This document shows positions 7,554 to 18,508 of a stretch of 43,159 nt of DNA, one piece after another. The translations under genes and the position numbers were made by a program. The stretch is taken from the NCBI GenBank assembly GCA_903925075.1, contig CAIYDQ010000020.1:1-43159 (forward strand). Direction: 5' to 3'. Position 1 is the stretch's first letter, and the number at the start of each line of letters is the position of its first letter. The notes beneath the pieces are model-generated. The model saw only the letters and a list, made by a program, of their open reading frames with translations. It was not told the origin of the DNA and ran no database searches. The DNA is from an uncultured Geobacter sp. GTDB lineage: Bacteria > Desulfobacterota > Desulfuromonadia > Geobacterales > Geobacteraceae.

Positions 7554-9827
7554 TTAGGCGGGCGTGCCAGGTCCGGCGGCAACGGACTTGAAGTCGGCGA
7601 AGGCCTGCTGCAAATCGTCATAGAGCGCGGGGAGTTCGGCCAGCTCTCCGGCCTTGGCCAGCGATTCCATCCGGGCCGCGATGCTGCGCACCTGGAGGGC
7701 GCCCATGTTGGCGGCGGTGCCGGCTATGGTGTGGGCGCGAAAATGCATGGCCTCGGCGTCGTTTTGCCGCACCGCCTCGCCGAGTATGGAAAGATATTCG
7801 GTGACCCCGGTGTTGAACTTTTCGACGAAGATATCAATCAGCGACTCCTCCCCGCCCAGGCGCTCCAGCAGTTCCTCCCGATCGAAGATTTCCGAGGCCT
7901 CGGCCGCCTGCCGTGCGGCTGTCGCTGACCGTGCGGCGGCTGTCACCTGCCCCGCGGCTGTCGTTTGCCCCGCGGCTGCCGGCGCTGGCCCTGCGGCTGC
8001 TGCCGCCTGCCGTGGGGCTGCGGACGGCCCGCCCGGTTCTGCGCCGGCGGCCGGCGGCTCCCCGCCGACGATCTTTCTGATTACCGAGAAGATGTCCTTT
8101 TCCCTCACCGGCTTGGAGATGTAGCCGTCCATGCCGGCCTGCCGGCAGAGCGCCTCGTCCTCCTTCATGGCGTTGGCCGTCATGGCGCAGATGTGCACCC
8201 GCCCGCCCAGAGACTCCTCCCGGCTGCGGATGACCCGGGTCGCTTCCAGCCCGTCCATGACCGGCATCTGCATGTCCATGAAGATCAGGTCGTACTCCCC
8301 CTGCGACCATTTCTCCACGGCGTCCTTGCCGTTGTCGGCGCAAATCACCAGGTGGTCTCCGGTCTTGGCGATCAGCTTGAGCGAGATCAACTGGTTGATC
8401 GGCACGTCGTCGACCACCAGGATGCGCAGCTTGCTGACGGTCCGGAAGTCCGTCCCCGCCTCCTCCTCGGGCGGGAGTTCGCCCGGTTGAGGAACCCCCA
8501 GCACCACCGTGAAGAAGAAGACGCTCCCCTCTCCCGGGTGGCTGCGCACGCCGATCTTCCCTCCCATCAGCTCCACCAGGCTTTTGCTGATGGACAGGCC
8601 GAGGCCGGTGCCGCCGTAGAGACGGGTGGTCGAGCTGTCGGCCTGGGAGAATTTCTCGAAGATCGCCTCCTGCACGTGCGGGGCGATGCCGATGCCGGTG
8701 TCGGCGACCGAGAAGCTGAAGGTCGCCTTGCTGGCGTCGGAGCTCTCCACCCGGCAATCGACGGTGATCGATCCCTTCTCGGTGAATTTGAGGGCGTTGC
8801 CGACCAGGTTGCCCAGCACCTGCCCGATCCTGACCGGATCGCCCATCGCCCGCTCGCCGCGCGCGGCGCCCGGCTCCAGCTGCACCCGCACCCCCTTCTC
8901 CCGCCCCCGCAGCTCGAACGGCTGCAGGCAGCGGTCCAGGAAAGCGTCCAGGTCGAAGACGATGGACTCCAGGGTGATCTTGCCCGCCTCGATCTTGGAG
9001 ATGTCCAGGATCTCGTTGATGATGGTGAGCAGGTTCTCGGCCGACGCCGAGAGCGACTTCATGTAGTTTTTCTGCTCCTCGTTCAGGGGGGTGTCCATCA
9101 TCAACCGCCCCAGGCCGATGATGCCGTTCATCGGCGTGCGGATTTCGTGGCTCATGTTGGCCAGGAACACGCTCTTGGCCGCGGTGGCCGCCTCCGCCTG
9201 CAACAGGGCGTCGTTCAGCTCGGTGGTGCGCTGCAGCACCTTGGCTTCCAGGGTCTGCATGTGCTCCTGCACCATCTCGTAGAGCTCGGAGTTCTCCACC
9301 GCGTAGGCGGTGTTGATCAGGATGGAGCTGAGCGCGTTCAGGGTGGAGACCCCGGCGCTTACGTGGCTCCCCGCAAGGGTCGCCGCGAACATCCCCCTGA
9401 TGCGGGAATTGGTGGCCAGCACGTGCAGCACCAGCGTGTCGCAACCGTCGATGGTCGGCACCACCACCGGATGATTCTGGTTCAGCGCCCAGGCGAAGGT
9501 GCCGTCCAGGATCCTCGCGTCCACCTCGGCGGAGATGGCGCCGGAGGAGCCGGCCGGGTCGCAGACGGTCAACTCGAAGGAGGCGTCCTCGCCGATGCAG
9601 AACATGGACAAGGTGCCGAAAGGAACGAGCCGCCTCAGCTGGCCGAAGACGGCCTTGATCACGAAGGAGGAGTCCTTGACCCGGTAGATGTCGGACTGGA
9701 AATCGCTGCAGGCGGTGAGGACGTCGAGCGTCCTCAGGTAGTTGAGATTGGACTCCTCAAGGAAGGCGACCCGCTCCTGAAGCCTTTGGATCTGGCTGGC
9801 CGGGGACTCATCTGGCACCGTCTTCAC
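7554..9827 (-). CDS. soluble hybrid histidine kinase with receiver and Hpt domains
   Basis: A 757-residue protein without membrane segments. It has an N-terminal coiled coil (about 10-30), a GAF-like sensory region (about 35-185), a coiled-coil linker, HisKA with H227 in [12 protein letters not shown], HATPase (N box [20 protein letters not shown]), a receiver with D518 in [11 protein letters not shown], an Ala/Gln/Thr-rich low-complexity linker (about 590-645) and a C-terminal Hpt domain with H699 in [12 protein letters not shown]. It carries a complete His-Asp-His relay whose final acceptor may be the receiver at 7066-7464. The GTG at 9827 has GGGA directly against it. A GTG at 9818 (three codons in) has GGGAG at 8 nt and may be the true start. 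It overlaps the HDOD gene, so the two are coupled. Confidence 0.9.
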
Positions 9828-10683
9828 TCCCGAACAGGACGGAGACGGTCTGGGCGAAGGCCGCGTCCATCTGAGCCGCCAGGGTCGGCAGGAAGAAACA
9901 GGAGAGCTGCAGCCGTTCCCAGACCGAATCGTCCAGCTCGGGAACGAAGATCTCGCCGGAGTTGCCGAACTGCATGGCGTGGGCCATGATGTCGGCGAAA
10001 TGCAGGATCGAGGACTCGCGCGGGTATTGGCTCGCCTTGCGGCAGTCGTGATGGCAGCCCACCGGCTCGCCGACGCTCGGGGGGATCTTCCAGCGGCGCA
10101 ACAGCTCCCCGCCGACCTCGGCGTGGTCGAAGGAGAATTTTTCCCTCTCGGCCCGGTAGAGCAGGCCGCCGGTGGCCCGGGACTCCTCCAAAAGCTCCAG
10201 GCAGAGGTCCGGCACCCGGACGTACATGACCAGCCTGCCGATGTCGTGCAGGATGCCGGCCACGAAGAAACGCTCGACGTTGGCCTCGCGCTGGCTGGTC
10301 GCCAGGAGCCGCGCGGCCAGGCCGACGGCGACGCTGTGCTTCCAGAAGCGCTCCATGTTGACCAGATCCTCGGGTATCCCCTTGAAGACGTCCATCACCG
10401 AGATCGCCAACGCCAGGTCGCGTACCTGGAAAACGCCGATGATGGTCACCGCCTGGGTGATGCTGTCTATCTTGGAGAAGTAGCCGAACAACGGGCTGTT
10501 GGCCAGTTTCAGGATGCGCGCCGTAAGCCCCATGTCTTCGGAGATGATCTTGGCGATGTCGCCGATGGAGCTGCGCGGGTGGTCGATCGCCTCGGAGAGC
10601 TGCGAGTAGAACATGGGGAGCGAGTGGATGGTGGAGACGTCCTGCACCATGTGCTCGACGGAAAGTTGCGGACTACGACGCAC
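9808..10683 (-). CDS. HDOD domain signalling protein
   Basis: A 291-residue protein with the HDOD fold (output domain related to HD phosphohydrolases), running from about residue 14 ([14 protein letters not shown]) to about 215. H116, H146-D147 (GILHDIGRL) and H187 (FDHAEVGG) are retained, though HDOD proteins are generally regarded as non-catalytic or of unknown activity. The GTG at 10683 is chosen because AGGAGGG lies 6-7 nt upstream; the ATG at 10650 has no Shine-Dalgarno. It overlaps the upstream small gene by 11 nt and the downstream kinase by about 20 nt, making a three-gene coupled unit. HDOD proteins are frequent in Geobacter and often sit beside kinases. Its role here is regulatory but unspecified. 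Confidence 0.87.
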
Positions 10684-11008
10684 GGGCGGCCCTCCTCTCG
10701 ATGCAGATGCGCATCAGTTCCTTGATGGCCGGGTGCTCCGTGTCGTTGTGCACGAACAAGAGCTCCACCTCTTCCCGGGCCGCGGCCAGCGCCGCCGGGT
10801 CCAGCTCCGCGTTGGGCTCCGTCTCCGGATCTTCCGCGACGTTGTCGCCGACTATTTCCGCCTCCAGGACCCCCCACATGCGGAAGATGGAGAAATGTTT
10901 CTCGGTGAGTTCCGCGCCTGCGGGCAAAAGCAGCCTGCCGCTGCGGTCGCAGATGTTCCGGCTCAAAACCATGCCGGGTGCCAGGTTGTCGATGTGGACC
11001 AGTGCCAC
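10673..11008 (-). CDS. small regulatory-domain protein (HD-GYP-associated N-terminal-like)
   Basis: A 111-residue protein starting at a GTG at 11008, chosen because GGAGG is exactly 6 nt upstream; the longer frame to 11068 has no such signal. Residues 1-55 (HIDNLAPGMVLSRNICD, GRLLLPAGAELTEKH) resemble the short domain that precedes HD-GYP/HDOD domains in many proteins (pattern L-PGM-L--D-----G-LLLP-G--L). The rest is an acidic linker and a helical, basic C-terminus. It is the first gene of the minus-strand unit and overlaps the HDOD gene, so the two may form one functional HDOD module split into two polypeptides. No enzymatic motif is seen. Confidence 0.75.
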   Translation of the reverse strand: MALVHIDNLAPGMVLSRNICDRSGRLLLPAGAELTEKHFSIFRMWGVLEAEIVGDNVAEDPETEPNAELDPAALAAAREEVELLFVHNDTEHPAIKELMRICIERRAARAS

Positions 11009-11074
11009 GTGAAGCCTCCTTTGCCTTGCTGCGCTGCCGCCCGTCCCCCGCGTCGCGGGACAAGCCATGTTAGT

Positions 11075-11202: not shown

Positions 11203-11410
11203 TTAACCCGACTCATTACCGGGGAGCCACTAAAATCGTCATCCTGCCGCCGTTGCCGCCCTGTATGCGACATTGTCTCCGGCGCCGCCGGGATCGAAAA
11301 CTCCATTTTCCGCCGACAAACTCGATGTACCCACTCTAACCAGCCAGCGCCGCCGCAGCCGTCGCCTTACGCTTGCCGATCTATCCGCCGCAACCAGGGA
11401 GGAATTTCCT

Positions 11411-11839
11411 TTGGCCGCTTTTTCATCCAACGAGGACATCCAGCTCGTCACCTTTTTTCTGGAGGGCGAGGAATACGGCGTGGACGTGATGCGGGTGCGG
11501 GAGATCACCGGCATGACGGAGATCACCAAGACCGCCAACTCCCCTCACTACGTGAAGGGAGTCATCAACCTGCGAGGCGTCATCGTCCCCATCGTCTCCC
11601 TGAGAAGCCGCCTGGGGATGCCGGAGGCGCTCGACGACAGCGCGAGTTGCATCGCGGTGACCGATTTCAACGGCGAATTGACCGGCTTCGTCATCGACGA
11701 GATCTCGGACGTCATCCGCCTCAGGCAGGGGGAGCTGCAGCCGGCGCCGGACGCCGCCGGTCAACCTTGGATCGAGGGCATTTTCTTCCAGGCCGACCAC
11801 AAGATGGTGGTGCTGCTCAACCTGGAACCTTTCTGCTGA
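11411..11839 (+). CDS. cheW: CheW-like chemotaxis coupling protein
   Basis: A 142-residue CheW-domain protein: QLVTFFLEGEEYGVDVMRVREI, then YVKGVINLRGVIVPIVSLRSRLGM and the C-terminal GIFFQADHKMVVLLNLE. CheW couples chemoreceptors to CheA at the inner face of the membrane or in cytoplasmic arrays. The TTG start at 11411 is chosen because AGGGAGG lies 8 nt upstream and the length then fits the family; the frame is open to 11273 but that part is unlike CheW. It is first in an operon with a [NiFe] hydrogenase, and a chemoreceptor is last. That arrangement suggests a dedicated coupling protein for that receptor. No CheA is encoded in the window. Confidence 0.9.
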   Translation: MAAFSSNEDIQLVTFFLEGEEYGVDVMRVREITGMTEITKTANSPHYVKGVINLRGVIVPIVSLRSRLGMPEALDDSASCIAVTDFNGELTGFVIDEISDVIRLRQGELQPAPDAAGQPWIEGIFFQADHKMVVLLNLEPFC

Positions 11840-11853
11840 AACAGGAGTAGCCA

Positions 11854-12348
11854 ATGGAGACGCGCAGTCAGAGAGTCGCATTACAGGACGCCATGGTTTT
11901 TCTGGGGGCGATCGCCTCGGGTACCGAACAGGCCATCGGCGAATCGGCCAACAGGATCAGCTATCTCGCCGGCGTGAACCTGGGCAAAAGGCTGTCGGAG
12001 GGGGTGCCGACCACCGGCGACATCGAAAAGGCCCTGGACGCCACCCGGGAGGTGCTGCTGCGGAACGATTACCTCTGGCTTTTCGAGGCGTTCAAGACCC
12101 ACGACCAGCAGGCGACCTTTCAGGAGAGCGAGGAGGGGACCCAGGTGATGCTGGTCTTTCGGGACTGCATGATCCGGCAGTCGCTGTTTCGTTTCGGACA
12201 CGCTCAAAAGGGATCGCTCTGCAACATGATGTACGGCTTCTTCGCCGGCGCGCTGCAGAACATCATGGGACGGGAATCGTCGCTGGAGATCGTGCACGCC
12301 GGGGAAAACGCCTGTTACAAAAAACTGGTGGTCAGGAGGGCTTCATGA
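11854..12348 (+). CDS. V4R-like small cysteine protein, hydrogenase operon (paralogue 1)
   Basis: A 164-residue soluble protein I cannot name with certainty. Its C-terminal half (C105, then SLCNMMYGFFAGAL with C123, then HAGENACYKKLVV with C154) resembles the V4R/4-vinyl-reductase-like ligand-binding fold, whose members end in a similar GE-x-C strand. The same pattern recurs in the protein at 14957-15412 with nearly the same cysteine spacing (18 and 31 residues here, 18 and 30 there). It lies 14 bp after cheW and overlaps the hydrogenase small-subunit gene by 4 nt (ATGA). The three shared cysteines could bind metal or respond to redox. A role as sensor or adaptor between hydrogenase and chemoreceptor is inference. 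Confidence 0.7.
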   Translation: METRSQRVALQDAMVFLGAIASGTEQAIGESANRISYLAGVNLGKRLSEGVPTTGDIEKALDATREVLLRNDYLWLFEAFKTHDQQATFQESEEGTQVMLVFRDCMIRQSLFRFGHAQKGSLCNMMYGFFAGALQNIMGRESSLEIVHAGENACYKKLVVRRAS

Positions 12349-13292
12349 GCGAGGTCACCATCAATACCGAGTGGCTGAGCGATTGCTCGGGCTGCCACAT
12401 CGCCATCGTCGATCTGCACGAAAAGATCATGAACGTGCTGCAGGCGGTGAAGATCCAGCGCTGTCCGGTGCTGACCGACATCAAGGACTACCCCAAGGCG
12501 ACCGTAGGCCTTGTCTCCGGCGCCATCCGCAACGAGCACGACCGCCACGCCGCCATCGAGATGCGCAAGGCCTGCGACATCGTGGTCGCCTGGGGATCGT
12601 GCGCCGTCTTCGGCGGCCCGGCCGGAGCCGGCAACATCCACACCCCGGAGGAGATCGTCAGGGCCGTCTACCTGGAGAACAAGACCACCGTTTCCGCCGC
12701 CGCTCCCTCAAGCGAGGTGTCGCCGCTGGAGTCGGTGGTGAGCCCCATCGACCAGGTGATCGAGGTCGACCTGTACCTCCCCGGTTGCCCGCCCCACCCC
12801 GCCTTCATCTTCGAAGCGCTGTCGGCGCTGGTGGAGGGGCGCCAGCCCGAGGTGAACCGGCGCTCGGTCTGCGCCAAGTGCAAGCGGCAGATGGTCAAGA
12901 CCGAGGTGACCGCCATCAAGTCCAACTCCGAAGGGATTCCCGACGCCGAGCAGTGCTTTCTGAGCCAGGGGTACACCTGCATGGGTTCGGTCACCATCGA
13001 CCGCTGCCTGGCGCCCTGCCCCGGCAACGGCGTCCCCTGCACCGGCTGCGCCGGGGCGACCATGCAGATCCTGACCGAGCCCAACCGCGACATCAGGACC
13101 GAGATCGCCGAGCGCATGTCCCGACTGACCCGCATCGACCGCGAGGCCATCGTGCTCTCGCTGGAGCGGGGCGCCAAGTCGCACTATTCCTACACCATGG
13201 CCAGCTCCATGATCGGCAAGAAACCCACCTTCCACATCAAGAAATGGATCGAGGACGAAAACGAGGATTACGAAGCAGGGGGACTCGCATGA
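12345..13292 (+). CDS. [NiFe] hydrogenase small subunit (Mvh/Frh G type)
   Basis: A 315-residue iron-sulfur subunit. C14 and C17 (CSGCH), C86 (WGSCAVFGGP) and C148 (LPGCPP) bind the proximal [4Fe-4S] cluster. C176/C179 (CAKC), C204, C212, C221, C225, C232 and C235 supply ligands for two further clusters, as in the F420-non-reducing (MvhG) or F420-reducing (FrhG) hydrogenase small subunits. There is no twin-arginine signal, so it is cytoplasmic. It transfers electrons from the NiFe site to a partner, here perhaps the ferredoxin at 14706. No MvhD, HdrA or FrhB gene is nearby. It overlaps the neighbouring genes on both sides (ATGA). Confidence 0.88.
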   Translation: MSEVTINTEWLSDCSGCHIAIVDLHEKIMNVLQAVKIQRCPVLTDIKDYPKATVGLVSGAIRNEHDRHAAIEMRKACDIVVAWGSCAVFGGPAGAGNIHTPEEIVRAVYLENKTTVSAAAPSSEVSPLESVVSPIDQVIEVDLYLPGCPPHPAFIFEALSALVEGRQPEVNRRSVCAKCKRQMVKTEVTAIKSNSEGIPDAEQCFLSQGYTCMGSVTIDRCLAPCPGNGVPCTGCAGATMQILTEPNRDIRTEIAERMSRLTRIDREAIVLSLERGAKSHYSYTMASSMIGKKPTFHIKKWIEDENEDYEAGGLA

Positions 13293-14701
13293 AAAGGACC
13301 ATCCGGATCGATCCGGTCACAAGGATTGAGGGGCACGCCAAGATCTTCATCAACCTGGAGGAGGACGGCAGCCTGCGAAACGCGGGGCTGGTGGTGAACG
13401 AGCTGCGCGGTTTCGAGAAGATCCTGATCGGCATGGAAGCCGACCGCATGCCGCACATCACCTCCCGCATCTGCGGCGTCTGCCCGACCGCCCATCACCT
13501 GGCGGCCTCCAACGCCCTCGACTACGCGGCCGGGGTCAAGGCGCCCCCCGCCGCCATGCTGCTCAGGGAGCTGATGTACATGGGGCACATCATCCATTCG
13601 CACAGCCTCTCCATCTTCGTCCTGCAGGGCCCGGACCTGGTGCTCGGCCTGGACGCCGACCCGGCGGTGAGAAACGTGGTCGGCATCGTGCAGGCCAACC
13701 CGGAGCTTGCCAGGATCGCCCTGAGGCTGCGCACCATCGGCCAGAAGCTGAACGAGATGGTGGGGGGGCGCGGCACCCACCCGGTGACCTCGGTGGCCGG
13801 CGGCATCACCTTCGTCCTGGACCGGGAAAAGCAAAGGATCATGCAGGAATGGGTGAGCGAGGCGCGCGCCCTGCTCCCCGTCATCACCCCGGCGGTGAAG
13901 GGGCTGCTGCTCAAGGCGCTGGAGCTGCACCCCTCGATGGCCAGCGACTGGGCCACCCCTTCCTGGAGCCTGGGCACGGTGCTGAACGACCGGGTTTCCC
14001 TGATCGAGGGGAGGCTTAGGGCGGTGGACGAGACCGGCGCCGTCCGGCTGGAGTTCCCGGTGGAGGATTACGACCGCTACCTGGTGGAAACGGTGGTGGA
14101 CTGGTCCTACATGAAGAAGGTGCACCTGCATCTGGACGGGGAGCACGAGTACCGGGTGGGTCCCATGGCCAGGATGAACGCCATGCGGCGCTTCGGCACC
14201 GAGCTGGCCGACGCCGAATACGAGGAATTCTCCAAGCTCGGCGGCTATCCCTGCCACCTGACCGTCTTCCAGACCTACGCCAAGCTGGTGGAGACCATCT
14301 GGGCGATCGAGCGCAGCGACCAGATCCTCAACGACCCGGCGATCTGGGGCGAGACCCGGGTGCCGGTGACCTTCAAGGGGGGGCGCGGGGTGGGCCACTC
14401 CGAGGCGCCGCGCGGCACGCTGATCCACGATTACCAGATCGACGAGCAGGGGATCGTGCGCGCCGCCAACCTGATCGTGGCCACCCAGCAGAACTACGCC
14501 ATCATCAACCGTTCGGTGGAGCAGGCGGCGCTCTCGCACGTGATCGGCAAGCCCGACGACCAGGCCCTTTTGAACGCGGTCGAGTTCAGCATCCGCTGCT
14601 ACGACCCGTGCCTCTCCTGCGCCACCCACGCCTTGGGGCGGATGCCGATGGAGATCGAGATCACCCGAAGCGACCGGACCGTCAGAACCATTCGGAGGTA
14701 G
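13289..14701 (+). CDS. [NiFe] hydrogenase large (catalytic) subunit
   Basis: A 470-residue catalytic subunit. The N-terminal RIEGH and RICGVCPTAHH motifs (C62, C65) and the C-terminal DPCLSCATH motif (C441, C444, H447) hold the NiFe(CN)2CO centre. A 23-residue tail after H447 is the peptide removed by a maturation protease, and such a protease gene lies downstream at 15385. Known H2-sensing regulatory hydrogenases (HoxC/HupV) lack this tail, so this looks like a catalytically matured enzyme. The sequence is closest in feel to cytoplasmic group 3 (MvhA/VhuA) enzymes. The start overlaps the small-subunit stop (ATGA), and 4 bp separate the stop from the ferredoxin gene. Confidence 0.92.
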   Translation: MKRTIRIDPVTRIEGHAKIFINLEEDGSLRNAGLVVNELRGFEKILIGMEADRMPHITSRICGVCPTAHHLAASNALDYAAGVKAPPAAMLLRELMYMGHIIHSHSLSIFVLQGPDLVLGLDADPAVRNVVGIVQANPELARIALRLRTIGQKLNEMVGGRGTHPVTSVAGGITFVLDREKQRIMQEWVSEARALLPVITPAVKGLLLKALELHPSMASDWATPSWSLGTVLNDRVSLIEGRLRAVDETGAVRLEFPVEDYDRYLVETVVDWSYMKKVHLHLDGEHEYRVGPMARMNAMRRFGTELADAEYEEFSKLGGYPCHLTVFQTYAKLVETIWAIERSDQILNDPAIWGETRVPVTFKGGRGVGHSEAPRGTLIHDYQIDEQGIVRAANLIVATQQNYAIINRSVEQAALSHVIGKPDDQALLNAVEFSIRCYDPCLSCATHALGRMPMEIEITRSDRTVRTIRR

Positions 14702-14705
14702 AGCC

Positions 14706-14960
14706 ATGTCCCTTGAGATAGCCGTCCACGAGCCGTCCTGCCGGGGTTGCGAGCTGTGCATCGACGTCTGCCCCACCAAGGTGTTCGAGCTGGACGCAGA
14801 GCAGCGCCTGTGCGTGGTGAAGCACGCCGAGGATTGCATCGCCTGCCTTTCCTGCGCCTACATCTGCCCTTCCACAGCCATCAGCCACAGCGGCTACCAC
14901 GCGGTGAAAAACTTCTATCGGGACGCCGAATTCTGCGAAAAGATGGGGAAATTCCTATGA
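14706..14960 (+). CDS. 2[4Fe-4S] ferredoxin, hydrogenase-associated
   Basis: An 84-residue protein with two classical clusters: C12, C15, C18, C22 (CRGCELCIDVCP) and C44, C47, C50, C54 (CIACLSCAYICP). About 25 residues follow the second cluster. It is the likely electron acceptor or donor of the hydrogenase. The ATG is 4 bp after the large-subunit stop and follows GGAGGTAG. It overlaps the next gene by 4 nt. Confidence 0.9.
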   Translation: MSLEIAVHEPSCRGCELCIDVCPTKVFELDAEQRLCVVKHAEDCIACLSCAYICPSTAISHSGYHAVKNFYRDAEFCEKMGKFL

Positions 14961-15412
14961 ACAGCACCGATGCCGGTTACGTCCTGGACCTGACTCCGGA
15001 GGATTACCAGAAAGCCACCGTGGAGGTCGCCTTCCTGCTGGATGCCTTCGCCAGCACCATCGACAACATCATGGGGGGGAACACGGCGCCGGTCGGCAGG
15101 ATCGCCGGCCGGGACACGGCCAAGAAGCTCCCGCTGGAACTGGTCGATCCGAGCCTCCAGGAGATCGTCGCGGCGCTGGCCGAGCAGATGCAGGCCGGCT
15201 TCGAGTTCCGGCTGGAAGGGGACCGGCTCTCCTTTGGCAGCTGCATCCTGCGCGACATGTGCGCGCTGCGAAAGATCCCGACCGGCGGCGCGCTCTGCCA
15301 CCTGTTCCATTCCTACTTCGACGGCATCGTCAACGGCCTTTTGTGCCGGCCGGTCAAATCCAGCATCGAATCGGTGGGTGAGGCATGCGCGCTGCGGATC
15401 GCCGTACAATAG
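14957..15412 (+). CDS. V4R-like small cysteine protein, hydrogenase operon (paralogue 2)
   Basis: A 151-residue soluble protein related to the one at 11854-12348. The shared C-terminal pattern is C96, GALCHLFHSYFDGIVNGLL with C114, and SVGEACALRIAV with C144; C102 and C130 are extra. The ATG at 14957 overlaps the ferredoxin stop. The frame stays open upstream to 14747, but that stretch lies inside the ferredoxin gene and is a shadow. The two paralogues sit on either side of the hydrogenase subunits and ferredoxin. A heterodimer, or alternative sensors, are possible. The function is unknown; V4R-type ligand or redox sensing is inferred from weak fold-like resemblance only. Confidence 0.68.
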   Translation: MNSTDAGYVLDLTPEDYQKATVEVAFLLDAFASTIDNIMGGNTAPVGRIAGRDTAKKLPLELVDPSLQEIVAALAEQMQAGFEFRLEGDRLSFGSCILRDMCALRKIPTGGALCHLFHSYFDGIVNGLLCRPVKSSIESVGEACALRIAVQ

Positions 15413-15849
15413 TCGTTTGCATCGGCAACGAGCTGATCGCCGACGATGCGGTCGGCTTCGAGATCTACCGCCGGCTGGCCGGCTGCCGGGCGCGCCTGGA
15501 GTTTTGCGGGGTGGGCGGCATCGACCTGTTGCCGCTGTTGCAGGGCGAGACCGACCTGATCGTGGCCGACGCCGTCGAGCTCGGCGCGCCCCCCGGCCAC
15601 CTGCACGTGCTCCCCTGGGACTGTCTGCCGGCGACCGCCACGGCGATTTCGGCCCACGGCCTGGGGCTGCGCGAGACCATCGAGATCGGCCGCATCCTCT
15701 ATCCGGACGCCATGCCCGAGCGGATCACGCTGGTCGGCGTGGAGGGACGCTGCTTCAACCGCACCAGAGAATTCATGACGCCGGAGGTCGCCGACGCCAT
15801 CGATGCCGCGGTCGGCAGGATCCGGGAACTGTTGGGGGAGCAGGCTTAA
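15385..15849 (+). CDS. hydrogenase maturation endopeptidase (HycI/HybD family)
   Basis: A 154-residue protease with the family motif GNELIADDAVG. The three nickel-recognition residues are E16, D62 (IVADAVELG) and H91 (SAHGLGL), nearly the same positions as E16/D62/H93 of E. coli HybD. It cleaves the large-subunit C-terminal tail after NiFe insertion, most likely that of the 13289-14701 product. The start overlaps the upstream gene by 28 nt, with GGTGAGG just before the ATG. Its presence argues that the hydrogenase is fully matured. Confidence 0.9.
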   Translation: MRAADRRTIVVCIGNELIADDAVGFEIYRRLAGCRARLEFCGVGGIDLLPLLQGETDLIVADAVELGAPPGHLHVLPWDCLPATATAISAHGLGLRETIEIGRILYPDAMPERITLVGVEGRCFNRTREFMTPEVADAIDAAVGRIRELLGEQA

Positions 15850-15879
15850 AGGCGAGAGCAATCGACGGGGGAGAGATAA

Positions 15880-17409
15880 ATGAAAGCGACTGTGTATAGC
15901 GTGGTAAAGCAGCTCTCCGAAGCCATGGTGGCGGGAAGGCTCGACGTCAGGGGCGACGTCGGCGCGCTGAGCGGCAAGGACGCCCAGACCGTGCAGATGG
16001 TGAACGAGATGATCGACGCACTGGTGGCGCCCATGCGGCTGGCGGGCAACGCCATCGACCAGATCGCCCACGGCAAGCTCCCTCCCTTCGTGATCGACGA
16101 CTACCAGGGGGAGTTCAACCAGATCAAGCAGAACATCAACGTCCTTTTGGCGATCCTGTACGGCATGCACGGCGAGACCGAGCACCTGATCGACGCCGTC
16201 AGGCAGGGGAAGCTCAAGACCCGGGGCAACGATTGGGACTACGAAGGGATCTGGCAGGAGCTGATCGGCGGCATGAACACGGCCCTGGACGCGGTGATCG
16301 CCCCGATCGCCGAAGCCGCCAGCGTGCTCGACCGGCTGGCGCGCTTCGACCTGAAGGCCAGAATGAGCGGCAGGTACCGGGGCGAGCACGCGGCCATCCG
16401 CAAGGCGATGAACACCACCGCCGAGTCGCTGCACGACGCCATCTCCCAGGTGTCCGAGACGGTCGAGCTGGTCTCGGAGGTAGGTCAGCAGTTGACCCGC
16501 ATAAGTATGGTGGTCTCCAAGGGCGCGGAGGAGCAGAGCGTGCAGTTGACCGAGACCTCCATGAGCCTGGCCACCATTTCCGAGAGCGCCGCCCACAGCG
16601 CCCAAAGCACCAGCGAGGCCCATGGCAGCGCCAAGCAGGCCACCGACGCCATCCTGATGGTGAAGCAGTCCATGGACCGCATGGTCGACTCCATGTGCGA
16701 CATCAGCGACGCCGCCGACAAGACCACCACCATCGCCCAGGAGATCGACGCCATCGCCAAGGAGACCGGCACCCTGGCCGGCAGCGCCCTGAGCAAGGCC
16801 GCGAGGATGCGCATCTCGGCGGGAGGCTTCGGCGTGGTGGCCCAGGAGATCCGCAAGCTGTCGCGGCAATGCACCGAGACGGCCAAGGCCATGAAGGAAT
16901 TCGAGAAGAAGATGAGCGCGGACCAGCAGGAGGAGTTCGCCACCCTGATCGCCAACCTGAGAAGCATCGCCGGGTTCTCCAACCTTTTGGGGGTCAACGC
17001 CGCCATCGAAGCGGCCCACGTCGAGGGGGCGGGGAACGAATTCAAGGTGATGACCGACGAGATCCAGAACCTTGCCGGCAGATCGGCCGACGCCGCCAAC
17101 AAGACCAGCGAGTTGACCAGGAGTGCTGCCAGCCTTTCCAAGAGCGGCATGCTGCTTTCCCAGGAAATCGACCGGCAGTTGGAGGGGGCCGTGCAGGGCG
17201 CCCATGCCATCAGCGCCTTTGCCGACGACGTTTCCGCCAGCATCCACGAGCAGACGGTGGGGTTGGGAGAAATCAGCAAGACCGCCGCCCAGATCAGCTT
17301 CGTGACCGACAAGAACGCGGAAAGCGCCACCGAATCGCTGGGAGCCGCCAGGGATCTGGAGCAGCAAGTGGAGAAGCTGGCCAAGTTGGTGCACCGCTTC
17401 AGCTTCTAG
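15880..17409 (+). CDS. soluble poly-HAMP methyl-accepting chemotaxis protein
   Basis: A 509-residue chemoreceptor without transmembrane helices or a recognisable ligand-binding domain. Residues 1-190 read as three to four consecutive HAMP-like units (for example AIDQIAHGKLPPFVIDDYQGEF and VLDRLARFDLKARMSGRYRG, quoted loosely as landmarks near 58-79 and 149-168). The signalling domain is unusual: two hairpin-tip-like segments are present, a degenerate one at about 288-330 (GSALSKAARM, GGFGVVAQEIRKL) and a better one at about 355-402 (NLLGVNAAIEAAH, EFKVMTDEIQNLAGRS). There is no C-terminal CheR-binding pentapeptide. GGGGGAGAG precedes the ATG. As last gene of the hydrogenase operon it probably takes its input from a protein partner such as the hydrogenase or a V4R-like protein; that is inference. 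Confidence 0.88.
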   Translation: MKATVYSVVKQLSEAMVAGRLDVRGDVGALSGKDAQTVQMVNEMIDALVAPMRLAGNAIDQIAHGKLPPFVIDDYQGEFNQIKQNINVLLAILYGMHGETEHLIDAVRQGKLKTRGNDWDYEGIWQELIGGMNTALDAVIAPIAEAASVLDRLARFDLKARMSGRYRGEHAAIRKAMNTTAESLHDAISQVSETVELVSEVGQQLTRISMVVSKGAEEQSVQLTETSMSLATISESAAHSAQSTSEAHGSAKQATDAILMVKQSMDRMVDSMCDISDAADKTTTIAQEIDAIAKETGTLAGSALSKAARMRISAGGFGVVAQEIRKLSRQCTETAKAMKEFEKKMSADQQEEFATLIANLRSIAGFSNLLGVNAAIEAAHVEGAGNEFKVMTDEIQNLAGRSADAANKTSELTRSAASLSKSGMLLSQEIDRQLEGAVQGAHAISAFADDVSASIHEQTVGLGEISKTAAQISFVTDKNAESATESLGAARDLEQQVEKLAKLVHRFSF

Positions 17410-17588: not shown

Positions 17589-17614
17589 CACAAACACACA
17601 GGACGGAATTGAAC

Positions 17615-18508
17615 ATGTTGAATCTGAAACCCGAGGTTGTCGCCCAGCTGGAGCGCGTGCTCAGCTCGGTCGAGATGCTGCTCCCCAAGGCCGTAAAGTC
17701 CATCGACTGGAGCAAAACCCACGCCGCCAACTGGCGCCGCCACTCCTTTTCCGGCTACCTTGAGGCGGTGAAGGTGACCGACACCACCACCCTGGAAGAG
17801 CTCCTCGGGGTCGAAAAGCAAAAAGAGGTGATGGTCAGCAACACCCGCCAGTTCCTCAAGGGGATTCCCGCCAACAACGCGCTGCTCTGGGGATCGCGCG
17901 GCACCGGCAAGTCCTCCATCGTCAAGGCGCTTTTGAACAAGTACGCCCCGGAGGGACTGCGGGTGATCCAGGTCGAAAAGGAAGACTTGATCTACCTTTC
18001 CGAGATCTTCAACGCGGTGGAGAACCAGCCCTACCGTTTCATCCTTTTGTGCGACGACCTCACCTTCGAGGTGGGGGAGCTAAGCTACAAGATGCTGAAG
18101 AGCGCCCTGGACGGCTCCGTGTATTCTGCTCCCGAGAATGTGCTGATCTACGTCACCTCCAACCGCCGCCATCTGCTGCCGGAGTACGAGAGCGATCTGA
18201 TCGGCGGCAAGTTCGTGAACGGCGAGTTGCAGCAGAGCGAGGCGATGGAGGAAAAAGTCTCCCTCTCCGACCGCTTCGGCCTTTGGGTCCCCTTCCACGT
18301 CTTCACCCAGGAGCGCTATATCGACGCCGTGCGTCTGTGCGTGGAAAGGGAGGCGCGCAAGCGCGGGACGGCGATTCCCTGGACCAAGGAGTTGGAACTG
18401 GACGCCATTCAATGGTCGCACGACAAGACCAAGCGCTGCGGCCGCACCGCCTTCCAGTTCTCCAAGAATTGGGTAGGGCGCTACCTGCTCGACAGAGAAG
18501 CCGCCTAA
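17615..18508 (+). CDS. DUF815 family AAA-type ATPase
   Basis: A 297-residue protein matching the DUF815 ATPase family. The Walker A motif GSRGTGKSS has K99, the Walker B-like strand is FILLCDDLTF with D147/D148, and a sensor-type asparagine lies in IYVTSNRRHLLP. The family's physiological role is not established. The ATG at 17615 has AGGACGG 8 nt upstream; a TTG at 17609 would be too close to it. It is monocistronic, with its own promoter candidate upstream and a palindromic element plus terminator downstream. No link to the flanking operons is evident. Confidence 0.88.
   Translation: MLNLKPEVVAQLERVLSSVEMLLPKAVKSIDWSKTHAANWRRHSFSGYLEAVKVTDTTTLEELLGVEKQKEVMVSNTRQFLKGIPANNALLWGSRGTGKSSIVKALLNKYAPEGLRVIQVEKEDLIYLSEIFNAVENQPYRFILLCDDLTFEVGELSYKMLKSALDGSVYSAPENVLIYVTSNRRHLLPEYESDLIGGKFVNGELQQSEAMEEKVSLSDRFGLWVPFHVFTQERYIDAVRLCVEREARKRGTAIPWTKELELDAIQWSHDKTKRCGRTAFQFSKNWVGRYLLDREAA

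Follow-up and report, generated by a model that had tools for sequence, protein, structure and literature searches.

Ties between hydrogenases and chemosensory signaling have been described before. In the hydrogenase database HydDB, group C2 of the [FeFe] hydrogenases is classed as "chemotactic (putative)" and [NiFe] types 2b and 2c are kinase- and cyclase-linked; no chemotactic [NiFe] type appears in the passages of that paper considered here (PMC5037454). A gene link between a hydrogenase and a methyl-accepting chemotaxis protein (MCP) is already in print for Geobacter sulfurreducens, with an Mvh cluster, GSU2416-2423, described as including the MCP "MvhV" (PMC7894505, PMC8691401). The main text of a survey of Geobacter chemotaxis does not contain the word "hydrogenase" (PMC2577667). 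Aer and TlpD are presented as receptors tied to metabolic enzymes (PMC6978683), and soluble single-chain MCPs have been described in Rhodospirillum centenum and in a small number of other microbes (PMC4692393). Here we describe an eight-gene [NiFe] hydrogenase and chemosensory operon at positions 11411-17409 of a 43,159-nucleotide stretch (hereafter, the window; contig CAIYDQ010000020.1, uncultured Geobacter sp.). In a literature search confined to papers outside subscription, we recognized none that deals with this operon or with receptors of the tandem-tip type, MvhV mentions aside.

The operon encodes, in order, the adaptor CheW, a V4R-family-like protein (V4R1), the small and large hydrogenase subunits, a ferredoxin, a second V4R-like protein (V4R2), a maturation protease, and a soluble chemoreceptor. 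The six genes from V4R1 to the protease are referred to as the core. We propose, with a probability of about one in two, that the operon products form a cytoplasmic receptor complex, built on a working [NiFe] enzyme and responsive to H2 or redox state. Genomes, contigs, and loci are cited by G, C, and L numbers where they need to be told apart.

Linkage of the hydrogenase and receptor genes

Distribution of the operon was analyzed in an order-level sample of 141 genomes, in which hydrogenase holders were defined by a large subunit of at least 67% identity. The hydrogenase was present in 32 genomes, all of which also encoded a receptor with the double signaling tip described below; these co-occurrence counts take no account of kinship. 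At 30 of the 31 loci from genomes other than that of the window, the receptor gene lies next to the protease gene on the same strand. The exception is L043, where the contig ends within the ferredoxin gene and the receptor of that genome is on another contig. The receptor is cut by the contig end in L040 and L067. One further genome of the order, G137, also has a double-tip receptor (contig C212, L174), but we rejected it as a genuinely unlinked case. Its flanks match those of Trichlorobacter thiogenes (L095/L058), the whole core is absent, and ~40 codons are missing from the start of the receptor gene, so that it looks like the remnant of an operon deletion. This truncated receptor sits next to a histidine kinase. 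Among 39 relatives, the ten genomes with double-tip model scores of 195-231 bits are the same ten that encode the hydrogenase; no other exceeded 73 bits.

The association extends beyond the order. Across 395 genomes of the phylum, the double-tip model scored above 200 bits in four, each of which also encodes V4R1. Another two encode V4R1 and both hydrogenase subunits with no receptor match. Seven matches of 75-82 bits were rejected as double-tip receptors since all seven alignments show ordinary single-tip MCPs. A V4R1 scan of named genomes yielded 65 loci. For the 52 numbered L092-L143, a receptor is present in 26 (12 of them from genomes already counted), the core lacks an adjacent receptor in 21, and the contig ends too early in five. 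Record labels, which are unconfirmed and mostly those of metagenome-assembled genomes (MAGs), place receptor-bearing loci in Geobacterales, Thermodesulfobacteriota, Ignavibacteriae, Acidobacteria, Latescibacterota, Eisenbacteria, and others. The receptor-less core is typical of Desulfobulbales, such as Desulfopila aestuarii, and also occurs elsewhere; one MAG (JAFGWT) carries a core with a receptor (L143) and another without (L119). Cultivated bacteria with the receptor include Trichlorobacter thiogenes and Geomonas paludis. Gene order and strand persist even where receptor identity has fallen to 35-43%. The linkage between hydrogenase and receptor is real, old, and conserved.

A tree of both hydrogenase subunits (73 rows, quick method) placed 44 receptor-bearing rows and one broken locus on one side of a branch (SH-like approximate likelihood-ratio test support of 89, under the 95 mark). 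With the root read as lying outside, this topology suggests that the receptor was gained once, on one hydrogenase branch, and that the core came first, the receptor second, and cheW last. All 18 rows with cheW form one clade that holds the window (support 100). Within the order, cheW adjoins the receptor operon in 17 of 30 informative loci, as determined by tblastn with the window CheW as query, which could miss very divergent CheW proteins. We therefore rejected cheW as a core part of the operon, confined as it is to one clade; it appears to be a late, clade-specific addition. The original prediction, which had tied cheW, hydrogenase, and receptor together, thus stands for the last two as a conserved pair and not for cheW.

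Other genes were observed beside receptor-less cores. In L116 (614-967) and L118 (8598-8951), a Roadblock/LC7 protein, perhaps another core partner, is encoded directly upstream of V4R1, and L119 has a frame of similar size at the same place. In L128 (5601-8664), an Hsp90-like gene, an unknown gene, and a PCMT-like methyltransferase gene precede the core on the same strand; similar-sized frames upstream of the core recur in several Desulfobulbales loci.

The receptor and its signaling tips

The receptor gene (15880..17409) encodes a 509-residue stacked-HAMP protein that matched HAMP_2 and MCPsignal (88 bits; Pfam cut-off, 34.6). As originally predicted, no ligand domain was found in Pfam and NCBIfam searches, and no membrane span was seen (highest 19-residue Kyte-Doolittle mean, 1.27). 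The profile searches likewise showed no cofactor or PAS domain. Its identification as an MCP also held, although it is not an ordinary one, for the tip is duplicated in tandem and its contacts are altered. This double tip, overlooked in the earlier account, is the oddest feature of the operon.

Residues 99-356 parallel Aer2 residues 415-671, covering the HAMP stack, first arm, and tip, nearly without gaps, and residues 347-507 parallel residues 354-514 of a citrate transducer model; the overlap of the two matches indicates two tips. Both tip 1 (residues 285-332; 16732..16875) and tip 2 (residues 357-406; 16948..17097) align without gaps to the tip of Tsr, with scores of 83 and 104, respectively. 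The internal repeat is clearest in L113, in which the tip units are identical at 31 of 58 positions, gapless, with a z score of 22; the signal is weaker in the window receptor (z 4.8) and lowest in L053 (z 2.4). All 32 aligned receptors span both units, and their sole internal indel point follows residue 346, between the tip units, where a loop would be expected. The signaling domain thus has two tandem hairpin tips, which stem from a duplication. The outer arms measure ~122 and ~125 residues and the repeated insert ~72, so the protein does not have the two full-length tandem hairpins of a single-chain MCP. With two tips, each altered, it also departs from the single MCP hairpin with canonical trimer and kinase contacts.

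The two tips differ at positions corresponding to Tsr Glu385, Arg388, and Asn381, which we take, in that numbering, to be trimer or kinase contacts. At the Glu385 position, Lys replaces Glu in tip 1 of 29 of the 32 receptors, and tip 2 has Glu in 30; at the Arg388 position, the tip 1 residue is basic (Arg or Lys) in 28, and tip 2 has His in all 32. Asn is invariant at the Asn381 position of tip 2, and tip 1 has Ser there in 20 of 32. The decay of one tip complements that of the other. Such alterations should hinder mixing with normal receptors and favor a private signaling unit; they might also mean loss of control over CheA. The most conserved regions of the receptor are HAMP2-4 (mean top-residue frequency, 0.73-0.77), in which Trp119 and Trp125 are present in all 32 proteins; the tips follow at 0.70 and 0.72, and the arms at 0.55 and 0.57. 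The methylation-helix pattern is also conserved, with Q219 in 32 of 32 and E218 in 26 of 32.

The hydrogenase, its V4R proteins, and the operon layout

Domains of the window proteins were assigned by Pfam and NCBIfam profile searches. The small subunit (12345..13292) matched Oxidored_q6 and the VhuG model (247 bits, under the model cut-off of 450), and its closest solved relative is MvhG (5odc; 249 bits). The large subunit (13289..14701) matched NiFeSe_Hases and the VhuA model (328 bits, under the model cut-off of 800); its closest solved relatives are 7t2r (333 bits) and then MvhA (317 bits). Both four-cysteine active-site motifs, RICGVCPTAH and DPCLSCATH, are intact. In large subunits of relatives, the second motif was found in 84 of 84 rows and the first-motif pattern in 81 (exceptions, L071, L172, and L173). 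The C-terminus extends 23 residues beyond the second motif, consistent with the maturation protease encoded in the operon (15385..15849), which matched HycI and TIGR00072, both above cut-off. The motifs, the extension, and the protease mark this as a catalytic-type [NiFe] enzyme.

Regulatory [NiFe] hydrogenases of group 2b are not known to have the C-terminal extension or the protease; the window enzyme has both. Group 3c enzymes are distinguished by MvhD and HdrA in the cluster; the profile searches found no MvhD, HdrA, or FrhB among the eight operon genes, in agreement with the original prediction, and such partners occur in L144. The operon instead encodes a two-cluster [4Fe-4S] ferredoxin (14706..14960; Fer4 families). 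The window genome, a 6.55-Mb draft, has [NiFe] large-subunit matches over cut-off on four further contigs. On one contig of this genome (C323), a hybrid histidine kinase (Tll0287-like, PAS, HisKA, and receiver domains; L078, 5083-7557) is encoded directly upstream of another Mvh-like hydrogenase, which has an HdrA-like protein downstream.

The two V4R-like proteins had no Pfam match at E 0.01. V4R1 (11854..12348, 164 residues) scored 13.3 bits with Pfam V4R, below the gathering cut-off of 31, and 23 of 33 relatives had a weak match (best E, 0.0034). Relatives of V4R2 (14957..15412, 151 residues) matched ATC_hydrolase (PF14196) in 31 of 40 cases (best E, 2e-7) and V4R in only three. An AlphaFold2 model of V4R2 (predicted local distance difference test score, 92) has a V4R/TRAPP fold. 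Its structural matches were led by TRAPP proteins and included the sensor domains of MopR, PoxR, and DmpR, as well as MJ1460 and H-NOX. The "V4R-like" label is thus borne out for V4R2 by its predicted fold, and finds little backing in profile matches to the window proteins or to V4R1 relatives. The two proteins are distant homologs, with 22% identity where V4R1 matches the V4R2 of L051. C105, H116, C123, and C154 are invariant in V4R1 (33 aligned rows), as are C96, C114, H118, and C144 in V4R2 (40 aligned rows), in which C102 is nearly so; these residues point to a metal or redox site.

Related hydrogenases that have no adjacent receptor are accompanied by V4R1 and by V4R2, the latter either alone or as a ferredoxin fusion. 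The ferredoxin carries a fused V4R2-like domain in L070 (9247-9966) and L071 (7841-8563), two loci at which the receptor search gave no match. The V4R proteins therefore seem to belong to the hydrogenase complex itself, and a role solely as joiners of enzyme and receptor was rejected.

The coordinates agree with the predicted arrangement of eight genes on one strand (+, stop codons included) with overlaps or gaps of at most 30 bp. In order, the spacings are a 14-bp gap, two 4-bp overlaps, a 4-bp gap, a 4-bp overlap, a 28-bp overlap, and a 30-bp gap. The cheW gene (11411..11839; 142 residues; Pfam CheW, 118 bits) has a TTG start behind GGGAGGA, and its open frame extends up to 11273. A scan for promoters and terminators gave no signal exceeding that of shuffled sequences. 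Downstream, at 17609-18508, is a DUF815 AAA-type ATPase gene (329 bits), which as a query had no match in the operon loci of relatives at E 1e-5. Upstream, the minus strand at 7554-11068 carries a hybrid histidine kinase-like frame (7554-9827), a possibly HDOD-like frame judged by eye (9808-10683), and, at 10673-11068, a short frame that weakly matches a NosR-type response regulator.

Proposed mechanism and comparison with known systems

In the mechanism that we propose, the hydrogenase, matured by its own protease, would equilibrate with H2 and exchange electrons with the operon ferredoxin. V4R1 and V4R2, with their conserved Cys and His residues and, in V4R2, a sensor fold, would sit in the enzyme complex and sense or relay its redox or turnover state. 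The soluble receptor, added in one branch, would read the enzyme complex through its conserved HAMP stack, and the two-tipped signaling domain would pass its output to CheA; in the clade of the window, a private CheW would take part. Every step beyond the ferredoxin is one that we infer, including physical contact, the H2 or redox input, the direction of the signal, the CheA output, and the behavior under control. Co-occurrence of hydrogenase and receptor, the probable single gain of the receptor, the catalytic-type enzyme, the conserved HAMP2-4 and methylation helix, and the likeness of V4R2 to sensor domains all favor this mechanism.

Several observations weigh against it. The core exists without a receptor and so would have a function of its own, and cheW was not found beside the receptor in 13 of 30 informative loci. 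CheA is encoded in 140 of the 141 genomes of the order, and its presence is therefore no test of output. Control of CheA is not assured, given that tip residues thought necessary for trimer and kinase contacts are altered. TRAPP-type matches of the V4R2 model rank as high as the sensor domains.

Four further readings were considered. In a bolder form of the proposed mechanism, tentative and on the unlikely side, the protein may be a forked receptor of a new build, each chain having two hairpin tips and the [NiFe] hydrogenase serving as sensing head. A dimer would then have a pair of independent four-helix tips, in each of which the better-kept halves of tips 1 and 2 would together make up a single face able to engage CheA/CheW, and H2 turnover relayed by the V4R redox proteins would set the output. 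It is unlikely, though a serious contender, that the hydrogenase is an ordinary metabolic enzyme working between H2 and ferredoxin and that the receptor is merely co-expressed, sensing general redox or energy state on its own with no physical coupling. The core stands alone in many genomes, and energy-taxis receptors such as Aer and TlpD are described as needing no dedicated enzyme (PMC6978683). However, the profile searches detected neither a cofactor nor a ligand domain in the receptor, and a specific partner is suggested by its near-perfect co-occurrence with the hydrogenase and by the unusual conservation of its HAMP stack.

We regard as quite improbable a receptor that lacks the usual control over CheA and acts as a scaffold, a CheW decoy, or a localization factor for the hydrogenase complex. 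The Lys in place of Glu in tip 1 (29/32), the His in place of Arg in tip 2 (32/32), and a cheW that is not always adjacent would fit such a role, but tip 2 keeps the Asn381-position Asn (32/32) and the Glu385-position Glu (30/32), and both tips and the methylation-helix Gln are strongly conserved. Hitch-hiking of genes that travel together on DNA without shared function would fit the record labels, which spread the unit over several phyla and suggest transfer. It is very improbable given an order and strand that stay constant at receptor identities as low as 35-43% and sequence conserved throughout.

If the hydrogenase does form the basis of a receptor complex, metal-reducing and syntrophic bacteria, whose communities are shaped by H2 exchange, would have a molecular mechanism for H2 or redox taxis that is open to experiment, and the putative chemotactic [FeFe] hydrogenases would have a counterpart among [NiFe] enzymes. 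The conserved hydrogenase-receptor pair suggests that cells may steer or signal by hydrogen or redox state. In the tandem tip, evolution has in effect run an experiment on the division of trimer and kinase contacts within a chemoreceptor tip. The six-gene core could be recognized in hydrogenase classification as a module with V4R partners.

The operon shares features with several known systems and departs from each. Its receptor resembles Aer2-type receptors in its stacked HAMP domains (whole-protein score of 176 bits, far under the model cut-off of 1200), but has no PAS domain that we could find, and its second tip follows the first. Like the single-chain MCPs of R. centenum, it has two signaling tips per chain; those are described as two fused Tar-like domains (PMC4692393), whereas here ~72 tip residues are repeated inside one long hairpin. 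The enzyme is nearest in its small subunit, and second nearest in its large subunit, to Mvh of the group 3c complex HdrABC-MvhAGD among solved structures, yet the operon has a ferredoxin and two V4R proteins instead of MvhD and HdrA. The G. sulfurreducens cluster GSU2416-2423 is described as likewise joining a cytoplasmic [NiFe] hydrogenase to an MCP. Related loci of the Geobacter family have MvhD or HdrA-like partners, so that cluster may be a different, second association. A second, different hydrogenase-MCP association is seen in L146 (G036; 11272-12468), where the gene for a 398-residue MCP overlaps by 4 bp the small-subunit gene of an Mvh-like hydrogenase that has an HdrA-like partner. 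This MCP has a single ordinary tip and apparently spans the membrane twice. That a hydrogenase could sense H2 on behalf of a signaling protein is a notion shared with HoxBC/HupUV of group 2b (PMC6978683, PMC5037454), which belong to another [NiFe] group and act with a kinase, where the window operon has a receptor, a C-terminal extension, and a protease. [FeFe] group C2 hydrogenases are likewise proposed to sense H2 and to act through MCPs (PMC5037454); the window operon differs in having a catalytic-type [NiFe] enzyme of the Mvh/Vhu kind, accompanied by V4R partners and its own protease.

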